Assembly (NCBI RefSeq): GCF_016907715.1
Contig: NZ_JAFBCM010000001.1
Location: 558,001-622,000, forward strand
DNA from: Tenggerimyces flavus
GTDB lineage: Bacteria; Actinomycetota; Actinomycetes; Propionibacteriales; Actinopolymorphaceae
Direction: 5' to 3'
Length of the DNA: 64,000 nt
How positions within the stretch are numbered: position 1 is the stretch's first letter; each line of letters opens with the position of its first letter. The notes beneath the pieces were generated by a model. The model did no database searches. It was given only the letters and a program-made list of their open reading frames with translations, and was not told where the DNA came from. A program made the position numbers and the translations under genes. Positions 50,767 to 52,885 of this stretch are shown piece by piece.

Positions 50767-51579
50767 ATGAACCATCGAATCGTTCGACAGCGCTTGCTGA
50801 TCGATGATCAACACGACGTCGAGGACGTCGCCGAAGACCTCGCGGACGGGGCGATCGTCGCCACGGCGTTCGCGAACTTCTACGTGATCGTGTCCCGACC
50901 GGACGTCGAGACCGTGCAGCGGATCAACTTGCTGACGGGGCGTCCGATCCGGCAGGTGGGCAGCGTTACCACCTCGTTCGATCTCATTCCGACCATGTTC
51001 GACTGGTCCCAGCTGCCGAGCGGCGTGTCCGGGCACGCGGTGCGCGCGTTGATGGACGAGCTGTTTGCCCTTGGCCCGTTCGGATTCCGCGGTCCCGCCG
51101 CCGAGCACGTGCCTGCGCACCTGACGCTGTCGTCCGCGGGGGTGCGGACCGTGCAGGTGATCGCGCCGGGGTACGCATGCCCGTCGAACGTGCTGTTCGC
51201 GCATGCTGTCGACGTGCTGGGCTCGGACGTTCTGTACGTGGGGGCAGCGAGCCGCCTCTCCTCCAACCTCGTGCCCTGGCGGGCGTCGGAGGTTGTGGAG
51301 GAGTTACATCACGTGGGCGAGTTCGAGCTGATCGAGCACCGCGACGAGGCCCTGTCCCTGGCCGCGTACCCGCACCACACGCCGGGTTCGGTGACGCTGT
51401 TGTCGTTCCACGCGCAGGACGGGTTCGTCGGGGGACGACCGGTGCTGACGATCGACCGGCACGGGTCACTGCCGATCGAGCACGTGCAGGAGCTCGCGGG
51501 GCCGTTGGGCTTCGAGATCCGCCCCACCGACCTCGCCGGCGAACGCCTCCGCACCCGCGCCGTCCCCATCCCCGCCTAG
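50767..51579 (+). CDS. Diverged Sua5/YrdC-like protein
   Basis: The 270-residue protein has the general plan of the YrdC fold: an early beta strand, VQRINLLTGRPIRQVGSVTT, in place of RxxxxKGRP, LGPFGFRGPAAEHVPAHLTLS, then AGVRTVQVIAPGYACPSNVLF. True YrdC carries TDTVYGL, which is lost here (AFANFYVIVSR), so the threonylcarbamoyl-AMP function is doubtful. It may bind nucleotides or RNA. ATG 50767 follows GGGGGAG. It is the last gene before the PR repeat copy 2. Confidence 0.5.
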   Translation: MNHRIVRQRLLIDDQHDVEDVAEDLADGAIVATAFANFYVIVSRPDVETVQRINLLTGRPIRQVGSVTTSFDLIPTMFDWSQLPSGVSGHAVRALMDELFALGPFGFRGPAAEHVPAHLTLSSAGVRTVQVIAPGYACPSNVLFAHAVDVLGSDVLYVGAASRLSSNLVPWRASEVVEELHHVGEFELIEHRDEALSLAAYPHHTPGSVTLLSFHAQDGFVGGRPVLTIDRHGSLPIEHVQELAGPLGFEIRPTDLAGERLRTRAVPIPA

Positions 51580-51594
51580 CTCGACCGGGCCCAG

Positions 51595-51732
51595 CCTCGA
51601 TCTTTCGTCCAGCGGTGGGTTCGACCGGTCCAGCCCGGCCCCCGGGGGCCAATGATCATGTTTACATGATCATTGGCCGCTTTACGTGGGGTGGACGCCA
51701 GGTAGAGGGGGCACTGGCCGGGTAAGGCGACC
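51595..51732 (+). repeat. Palindromic repeat element PR, copy 2 (~138 bp)
   Basis: Same element as 28380-28519. Here the hairpin at 51647-51678 is perfect: GGCCAATGATCATG, loop TTTA, CATGATCATTGGCC. The remainder up to the next start at 51902 (~170 bases) shows no gene or clear signal. Confidence 0.75.
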
Positions 51733-51901: not shown

Positions 51902-52885
51902 ATGGCAGCACAGTGGATGTTGGCTTTCGACGCGTCGTGTTCGACGTGCCGCGGGATCTCACAGGCGGTGGAACGGGCCAGCGCGGGCAAGCTCGAGATC
52001 GTCCCACTCGGTCGTTCGGACGTAGCGACCTGGCGGCGCCAAGCGCTCGGAGCGCAGGCACCATGGGCACCGACTCTGCTCCGGGTCGACGACGACGACG
52101 TCCGGGCGTGGACCGGTCCTCGCATGGCGTTTCCGCTCGTCCGGCGACTGGGCGCGGCCGCGTCCCTCCGCGTCCTGGGCGCGCTGGGCGATCTGCGCAC
52201 CGCGCCCGGCGGCAAGACTGGGTTGACGCGAGGCAGCTTCCTCCGGCTCGGCGGAGGTGCGGTCATGGCGGCGGGTGCCCTGCTGGCCGGCAGCTCTCCC
52301 GCGCTCGCGGTCGAGCGGGAGAAGTCCGAGGCGCGTGCGTGGGTGGCCGCGAACGCCGGAAAGCTGCCACAGCGCTACGACGAGGTGGTGGCTCACGCTC
52401 CGGCGTACCGGCGCGCGATCTACGAAGCCTCCTCGCCGGCCGTTCGCAGCCACCTGTGGGTGGAACAGCTCACGCGGTACCGCGATAGCGCGAAGCTGTC
52501 CGCCGCGCAGCGGTCCGTCCTGGACAAGGCGGTGGCGCTCGCGGCCAAGGAGTCGACGTTCACCGACGACGTGGCCACGCGTACGGCCACCCAACCGGCG
52601 GTGGACGCGCTGACCGAGGCCGCGCACCAGGCGTTCGAACGGGACGAGATCTACAAGGTGCTCGCGTCGCTCGGGCCGAGCCTGCAGCCGGGATCCGTCT
52701 CGCCGCAGGACTGTGACATCTGCGAGTGCTCGACCGAGTCCGACTGGTGCTCGAAGCCGGCGCGCTACTGCCGCCAGATCGCCTGCCACATGGAATGCGA
52801 CCAGTCCCACGGCTGCTACTGCTTCACCGGCTGCGGCTCGTTGTGGCGCTACGAGTGCAACGGCTACTGCGAGGTCGTCAGCTGA
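51902..52885 (+). CDS. Thioredoxin-like (DCC-type) N-terminus fused to a fulvocin C-like Cys-rich tail
   Basis: The 327-residue protein has three parts. Residues 1-105 resemble DCC/thioredoxin-like proteins, with the CxxC pair Cys13-Cys16 in MLAFDASCSTCRGIS. Residues 117-137 are a hydrophobic stretch ending SPALA, like a signal or anchor. After a helical region, residues 271-323 hold 12 Cys, with the pattern C-x-CST-x-SD-x-C ... FTGCG-x-x-W-x-Y-x-CNG that I recognise from the myxococcal bacteriocin fulvocin C. A secreted disulphide-rich peptide made from a fused precursor is the simplest reading. ATG 51902 follows CCGGGGG. There is no dedicated immunity or transport gene next to it. Confidence 0.68.
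   Translation: MAAQWMLAFDASCSTCRGISQAVERASAGKLEIVPLGRSDVATWRRQALGAQAPWAPTLLRVDDDDVRAWTGPRMAFPLVRRLGAAASLRVLGALGDLRTAPGGKTGLTRGSFLRLGGGAVMAAGALLAGSSPALAVEREKSEARAWVAANAGKLPQRYDEVVAHAPAYRRAIYEASSPAVRSHLWVEQLTRYRDSAKLSAAQRSVLDKAVALAAKESTFTDDVATRTATQPAVDALTEAAHQAFERDEIYKVLASLGPSLQPGSVSPQDCDICECSTESDWCSKPARYCRQIACHMECDQSHGCYCFTGCGSLWRYECNGYCEVVS

Follow-up and report, generated by a model that had tools for sequence, protein, structure and literature searches.

Pediocin-type disulphide bacteriocins need a separate exporter, a thioredoxin-like accessory and an immunity protein. The accessory PedC is described as raising pediocin potency (PMC4919988), and accessories of this type are presented as separate genes that share an operon with an ABC exporter (PMC5465099, PMC9148482). 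Halocin C8 is described as the product of one gene, whose Tat-exported precursor ProC8 gives rise to both the peptide and an immunity part (PMC11509114). For fulvocin C of Myxococcus fulvus, the primary structure is published work, cited in PMC8708641; the peptide lends its name to the NCBIfam family NF033852, "bacteriocin fulvocin C-related protein".

We analysed a window of 64,000 nucleotides from Tenggerimyces flavus and compared one of its genes with these systems. Like PedC and the bacteriocin transport accessory proteins, this gene would provide a thioredoxin-like partner for a disulphide-bonded peptide. PedC, however, is a separate gene, whereas the predicted thioredoxin-type domain of the window protein is fused into the precursor, ahead of an internal signal-like segment and with no recurring partner genes. 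The gene resembles that of ProC8 in encoding a one-gene precursor, and the available portion of PMC11509114 mentions no thioredoxin-like leader for ProC8. With NF033852, the tail of the window protein shares a match over the whole model and the eight core cysteines; the model has neither an N-terminal domain nor a signal, whereas the window protein has both, along with four further tail cysteines. The kind of system is an already known one, a disulphide bacteriocin with a thioredoxin-like helper; here the two are fused. Searching the open literature by title and abstract, we found no paper on a fusion of a thioredoxin domain with a fulvocin tail.

The first-pass annotation had placed the gene on the forward strand, from an ATG at 51902 to a stop codon ending at 52885 (327 aa), and had pointed to a Cys13/Cys16 pair, an internal hydrophobic stretch ending in SPALA and 12 tail cysteines within 53 residues. 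All of this was found as described: the pair reads C-S-T-C, the stretch follows R110 and ends in S-P-A-L-A (residues 132-136), and the cysteines lie at residues 271-323. It had also called a precursor with its own oxidoreductase domain unusual; the fusion is not peculiar to this genome, as 22 full-length loci in 13 actinobacterial genera and one member of the Chloroflexota carry it. The four-part layout of the protein is kept in 22 relatives at 36-48% identity (23-row alignment). The features are as follows.

51902..52885, forward strand: whole fused gene, stop codon included; its start is approximately that of the relatives
51902..52201, forward strand: predicted N-terminal thioredoxin-type domain (N-domain), residues 1-100, from the AlphaFold2 model, fold neighbours and profile alignment
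51938..51949, forward strand: CxxC motif, residues 13-16 (CSTC), invariant in 28/28 N-domains and 23/23 aligned rows
52070..52072, forward strand: proline 57 of P-T-L, invariant in 28/28 and aligned with the thioredoxin P-T-L
52229..52309, forward strand: internal signal-like segment, residues 110-136, comprising R-G-S-F-L-R, a Gly/Ala-rich hydrophobic stretch and SPALA
52310..52675, forward strand: helical middle domain, residues 137-258, with helices in the model; candidate pro-region or self-immunity part
52712..52870, forward strand: Cys-rich fulvocin-related tail, residues 271-323, with 12 Cys (eight core plus four); NF033852 match at 7e-30
51649..51676, no strand assigned: 28-base palindrome upstream of the gene, dispersed in the genome and not gene-specific

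The tail is the best-defined part at the family level. Residues 170-324 match positions 1-150 of the 150-position NF033852 model at 104.9 bits (cut-off, 35), and all 23 aligned rows match the family, which supports placing the tail in the family named after fulvocin C. The part of the middle domain from residue 170 onward falls inside this match. Note that "bacteriocin", as applied to the fulvocin-type members, derives from the family name. RefSeq uses "bacteriocin fulvocin C-related protein" for the annotated relatives on Streptomyces plasmids, so the fused protein itself is not new to annotation. In the structure model the helices of the middle domain are well defined (block pLDDT 81-98, residues 141-260), and the tail is modelled poorly, with residues 262-309 and 320-327 below pLDDT 50.

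Fulvocin C also has eight cysteines. Seven of the eight core cysteines of the tail are present in 23/23 rows and the eighth in 22/23, one neighbouring Cys replacing a core Cys in L041; the window protein has all eight. Two or four extra tail cysteines, mostly at differing columns, occur in 9/23 aligned proteins. Among 30 fulvocin-type proteins, which are related and hence not 30 independent trials of parity, the tail count is 8 in 19, 10 in 6 and 12 in 5, and odd in none. Even counts, as in fully disulphide-bonded peptides, argue against free cytosolic thiols, and the window tail would carry six disulphides. The first-pass annotation had stated that a tail without similarity to fulvocin C, in proteins with unpaired cytosolic cysteines, would speak against a bacteriocin; what we found was the family match and an even cysteine count in 30/30. 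Parity was examined for the fulvocin-type tails, and in the Rubrobacter-type cargos described below the counts are often odd.

The AlphaFold2 model of the N-domain has a pLDDT of 92.1 and the element order E-H-E-H-E-E-H-H. It resembles known folds only modestly, with a best Foldseek E of 0.0024 and a best Z of 5.7 (rmsd 3.4 over 77 residues), and the fold neighbours listed are mostly of thioredoxin, PDI, glutaredoxin or GST types. Foldseek also lists 1zma, a bacteriocin accessory protein from Streptococcus (E 0.014, rank 22). A fold search with the full-length window protein gave nothing with E under 0.001, a sequence search of solved structures gave no convincing relative, and Pfam gave no family at E ≤ 0.05, with one chance-level match to DUF2231 at 0.071. 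When a profile of 28 N-domains was compared with the PDB, thioredoxins were weakly matched (best E 0.018) and aligned at the CxxC and P-T-L. C13 and C16 lie at the start of helix 1 (predicted helix 14-27) and are invariant in the 23-row alignment, and both the CxxC and P57, which we take to occupy the position of the thioredoxin cis-proline, are invariant in 28/28 aligned N-domains. The CxxC is likewise present in 26/26 loci retrieved with Cys-free peptide patterns, and a C..C close to the N-terminus in 63/66 proteins with the N-domain; the three exceptions (L105, L106 and L107) all belong to one genome, G900, and their profile matches begin past the CxxC.

Of the DCC/thioredoxin-like assignment made in the first-pass annotation, the thioredoxin half is supported by the CxxC and the profile alignment, with modest fold matches, and the DCC half is not supported. 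We tried and rejected the DCC1-like family PF04134, which the window protein does not match (cut-off 27.8) and which matches 1/23 aligned rows at E 0.0031; the sole PF04134 match of the window genome (23.5 bits) is a different locus. The thioredoxin family PF00085 is also unmatched by the window protein and matches one of the 23 aligned rows. Both families share the CxxC, the P-T-L and the strand-helix order with the N-domain, which we predict to be of thioredoxin type with a conserved CxxC and proline.

Behind the N-domain comes the signal-like segment. All 23 aligned rows keep R110, L035 and L042 being aligned at this column but lacking the signal pattern, and a script found an R-x-x-F-L type pattern in 61/66 leader-bearing proteins. 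The script missed the signal of L106, which is visible on inspection in a protein whose N-terminal half is absent. The residue that follows the arginine of the pattern (n=61) is G in 19, R in 19, A in 11, K in 8 and S in 4, and the window segment reads R110-G111, with no twin arginine. The Tat model TIGR01409 matches L053 at 17.6 bits (cut-off, 16.7) and Tat models touch some other relatives more weakly; none matches the window protein. A plain Tat substrate was rejected as a description of the window protein, whose segment has no second arginine and begins at residue 110 rather than at the N-terminus. Twin arginines are described as almost invariant in Tat signals, a single arginine being workable in a more hydrophobic signal (PMC5539426), and a single arginine is described as possible in Sec signals (PMC10924467). 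In form, then, the segment appears Tat-like, often with a single arginine, and export may proceed via Tat or Sec. The positive charges ahead of the hydrophobic stretch would favour an orientation with the N-domain inside and the tail outside.

We looked for partner genes among ORFs of ≥90 aa around 27 loci, in flanks that extended to at most 8 kb on either side and were shorter where a contig ends. No exporter, immunity or protease gene recurred in more than three of the 27, and no ORF family at all did so besides the fused gene and its antisense frames. The lack of an adjoining exporter or immunity gene, already remarked on for the window, thus extends to the relatives, and a single gene appears to make up the whole system. 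In the window, the neighbours are an upstream ORF at 50767-51579 on the forward strand and, downstream, a small ORF on the opposite strand followed by a larger one that we take to be ROK-like. One Rubrobacter and one Thermomicrobium plasmid have an S8 peptidase annotated close to the leader gene, and a presumably S8-like peptidase lies near the leader in L075; by eye, none was noticed among the window ORFs at 46-58 kb.

A scan of named bacterial genomes yielded 26 loci with relatives, 22 of which have an uninterrupted frame across both ends. The other four end at a contig edge (L043), hold Ns (L044), carry another cargo (L045) or have the N-domain only (L046). The genera are Fodinicola, Nocardiopsis, Nonomuraea, Kutzneria, Streptomyces, Kribbella, Actinokineospora, Nocardia, Saccharopolyspora, Actinoallomurus, Planobispora, Microtetraspora and Rhodococcus, and the non-actinobacterial locus among the full-length relatives is from Ktedonosporobacter (Chloroflexota). 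Fifteen plasmid records matched, 13 of them from Streptomyces and 10 covering at least 80% of the query; there was no match among 50,697 phage records. The tail family is above its cut-off in 5/293 genomes of the window's order (7/293 at E ≤ 0.001), with one copy per genome having the family, and in 1/396 genomes of the phylum, the window's own (3/396 at E ≤ 0.001). We set aside L008, L009 (stops inside), L047 and L048 as below the family cut-off, and L014 (E 2.7e-4), which was not recovered by the N-domain profile.

Some annotations conceal the N-domain. In L017 (8001-8927), L019 (8001-8960) and L114 (20001-20927), RefSeq starts the gene inside the frame and leaves the N-domain unannotated; in L017 and L019, an ATG behind a purine-rich run precedes the N-domain. 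Elsewhere the domain is missing: a Kribbella-like genome (G030) has a fulvocin-type gene without it, so the leader is dispensable there. The surroundings of the Streptomyces clavuligerus tail match likewise showed no N-domain, and the frame read at H13, on a plasmid of this species, gave no tail match. In two Kribbella-like genomes, at L010 (229-1497, reverse strand) and L013, the latter without an N-domain, another gene starts directly where the fulvocin-type gene ends; we take it to resemble a haem peroxidase.

The N-domain has a wider range than the tail. Its profile finds it in 17/396 genomes of the window's phylum, Actinomycetota, in 4/293 of the order and in 7/301 of Ktedonosporobacter's phylum. 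All four genomes of the order also have the tail family. Fifteen of the 17 phylum genomes belong to one family, f21, one of whose genomes has the same protein as a Rubrobacter radiotolerans plasmid. In f21 genomes, Rubrobacter, Thermomicrobium, Nocardiopsis and others, the N-domain and an R-x-x-F-L signal stand ahead of differing C-termini: the post-signal parts of 49 proteins form eight groups that show no similarity to one another at E < 1e-4, and in five of these every member has at least seven cysteines in the last 110 residues. The pairing of oxidoreductase and bacteriocin put forward in the first-pass annotation is partly supported: the fulvocin-type tail fits it, but it is too narrow, the N-domain preceding at least eight cargo groups, some of them Cys-poor. 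We considered whether the Rubrobacter-type tails belong with halocin C8 and do not claim this, the ten proteins tried giving no library match to a family of that kind at E ≤ 0.1.

Among 66 leader proteins, which are related and do not represent independent events, 53 have at least six cysteines in the last 110 residues, compared with 1 of the 378 further genes that a home-made gene caller predicted at these loci. The remaining 13 are Cys-poor (<6 Cys in the last 110 residues) and include M23-type cargos (L063, by Pfam match, and L064, of the same group); L064, L099, L100, L102 and L105 have no cysteine at all in this stretch. Redox folding of the cargo is therefore not the leader's only use. 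What is new here, besides the even tail cysteine counts and the plasmid hybrid described below, is, as judged by sequence comparison, that the N-domain and the R-x-x-F-L signal form a movable leader, found in several lineages and mostly ahead of Cys-rich cargos. The Chloroflexota genome G900 has nine leader matches (L095, L099, L101-L107), several stop-broken or partial, with C-termini that range from Cys-rich to Cys-free.

As to the composition of the 66, six proteins of <200 aa were dropped (L054, L087, L097, L101, L103 and L104). L043 (running off its contig), L044 (Ns), L055 (early frame end) and L046 (perhaps a lone N-domain, with an unrelated frame behind it) stand outside the set, as do nine of the 15 plasmid matches, six with an N-domain (H1-H3, H5, H6 and H10) and the three tail-only ones of Streptomyces clavuligerus (H13-H15); of these nine, H1, H2, H5 and H13 were examined separately. 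Repeats were left out (L065 equals L074, and L050 the Rubrobacter protein of L015), and L086, L092 and L093 were kept despite damaged-looking C-terminal frames.

Closely related leaders can precede unrelated cargos. Genome G303 has four leader copies within 20 kb, with presumably ABC transporter-like genes between them. Two of its loci, L066 and L071, have N-domains identical at 92/97 aa and 265/291 bases, and their cargos align with a negative score. The 60 bases upstream are 98-100% identical among L070, L071, L068 and L069, which come from three genomes and represent three cargo groups. The stretch covered by L072 and L073 (G303:C1 2226000-2258000), with four leader genes and different Cys-rich cargos, looks like a multi-peptide cluster.

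A clear example of a changing tail is given by two Streptomyces plasmids. That of Streptomyces sp. NBC_00012 carries two tandem fulvocin-type genes, identical at 808/810 bases (99.75%) over N-domain, signal and middle domain, and their tails are identical at 93/170 columns (116/160 under another boundary and scoring). The plasmid of Streptomyces sp. NBC_00046 carries a single gene, made up of the upstream flank of copy A, the body, and the tail and downstream flank of copy B; its tail equals that of NBC_00012 copy B at 183/183 bases. Over the region compared, a single 1,292-base unit, with an 814-base repeat at its borders, is what distinguishes the two plasmids. Together, the hybrid and the tandem pair point to recombination through the constant body, which swaps the tail behind the same upstream region, a pattern that would be expected of diversifying weapons. 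Of seven other pairs compared, four have the body better conserved than the tail, and in three the tail is conserved about as well or better; in L035/L042, for instance, body and tail are at 72% and 73%. With so mixed a comparison, the tail switching of NBC_00012 and NBC_00046 is one clear case and no rule. A different arrangement is seen in Actinokineospora fastidiosa (L081/L088, genome G691), where two fulvocin-type fused genes diverge from a common short intergenic stretch.

The reading that we favour, and to which we give an even chance, is that the window gene by itself encodes the precursor of a bacteriocin-like peptide, exported and disulphide-bonded, and that this precursor carries a redox leader in cis. 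The evidence counted for it comprises the tail family, the even cysteines, the kept CxxC, the reuse of the leader, the linkage in cis, the tail switching and the autonomy of the gene. The thioredoxin-type domain would remain cytoplasmic, ahead of the internal signal, and would work in cis on the cargo's thiols, so that disulphides are formed, isomerised or guarded at about the time of export. PedC, a separate thioredoxin-like accessory, would play the same part for pediocin. The segment R110-A136 would carry the chain out via Tat or as a Sec signal-anchor, and signal peptidase would cleave after SPALA. Were Sec the route, oxidation of the tail by a cytoplasmic domain would be hard to envisage. 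Also weighing against this reading are the 13 Cys-poor cargos, the fulvocin-type gene that lacks the N-domain, the R-G of the window signal, the modest fold matches, the low pLDDT of the tail, the mixed outcome in the seven other pairs and the odd counts among Rubrobacter-type cargos. The helical middle domain would be a pro-region, perhaps conferring self-immunity as in the halocin C8 precursor, and the tail, with up to six disulphides, would be released against competitors.

Three of the alternatives concern the N-domain and its linkage to the tail. It is rather unlikely, in our estimate, though still worth weighing, that the N-domain is a non-catalytic leader whose fold anchors, spaces or times the export of cargos that pose difficulties by being hydrophobic, Cys-rich or toxic, the CxxC being structural or regulatory. 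The same leader does occur on Cys-poor and M23-type cargos, one fulvocin-type gene does without it, and L105 is seemingly intact with no CxxC and a Cys-free C-terminus; but a structural motif sits less easily with the invariance of CxxC and P57 in 28/28 N-domains and with the excess of Cys-rich cargos (53/66 against 1/378 background genes). We find it less probable again that the N-domain is a cytoplasmic reducing guard, which would keep the tail cysteines reduced and export-competent, or the peptide inactive, until disulphides form outside, and so provide self-protection. The actinobacterial cytosol is reducing, the N-domain precedes the signal and is thus probably cytoplasmic, and no immunity gene recurs next to the fused gene, all of which would suit a guard, yet a free thioredoxin could serve equally in trans. 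Single-arginine signals would fit Sec (PMC10924467), which also favours the guard. An accidental fusion, or an annotation artefact of two genes, is very improbable. The RefSeq starts inside the frame do hide the N-domain in L017, L019 and L114, but the frame is open across both parts in 22/26 loci, and in L017 and L019 an ATG after a purine-rich run lies ahead of the N-domain; a chance product is contradicted by the NF033852 score and the conservation of the layout.

As for the tail, the family name, the paired cysteines and the one case of tail switching make a bacteriocin plausible. The fulvocin name could instead mislead and the tail be another secreted disulphide-rich peptide, such as a protease inhibitor, adhesin, or wall or signalling peptide; we consider this possible, if doubtful. 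The weapon label comes from the family name, the tail having been compared at the level of the family profile, and each family-bearing genome of the order survey has a single copy. Antagonism, however, better fits the rare and patchy presence with plasmid carriage, the tandem copies, the switching of tails behind a single body, the divergent pair in Actinokineospora and the use of the leader with M23-type cargo.

Beyond the precursor reading of the window gene, we tentatively put forward, as something short of probable, a secretion-leader class for which we found no name. It would consist of a thioredoxin-type domain and an internal, often single-arginine, Tat-like signal, and would fold the attached antagonistic cargo or guard its thiols; cargos would be swapped by homologous recombination through the constant body, and self-protection would reside in the same chain. 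The class would span Actinomycetota, Chloroflexota and Thermomicrobium. If this holds, a single leader would be at the service of a shifting repertoire of disulphide-rich peptides. The conserved leader is a sequence handle for unknown exported peptides in actinobacteria and Chloroflexota. A neighbour-independent precursor that brings its own oxidoreductase-type domain in cis would offer a compact way of making disulphide peptides, useful for production. The leader also raises the question of whether a cargo already folded and oxidised can be exported by means of an internal signal with one arginine.

Finally, the palindrome upstream of the gene (51649-51676) is perfect and reads CCAATGATCATG-TTTA-CATGATCATTGG. 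With its centre slightly variable, it has 56 copies in the 8.5 Mb genome, compared with 0 for a reversed control, and is a dispersed palindromic repeat.
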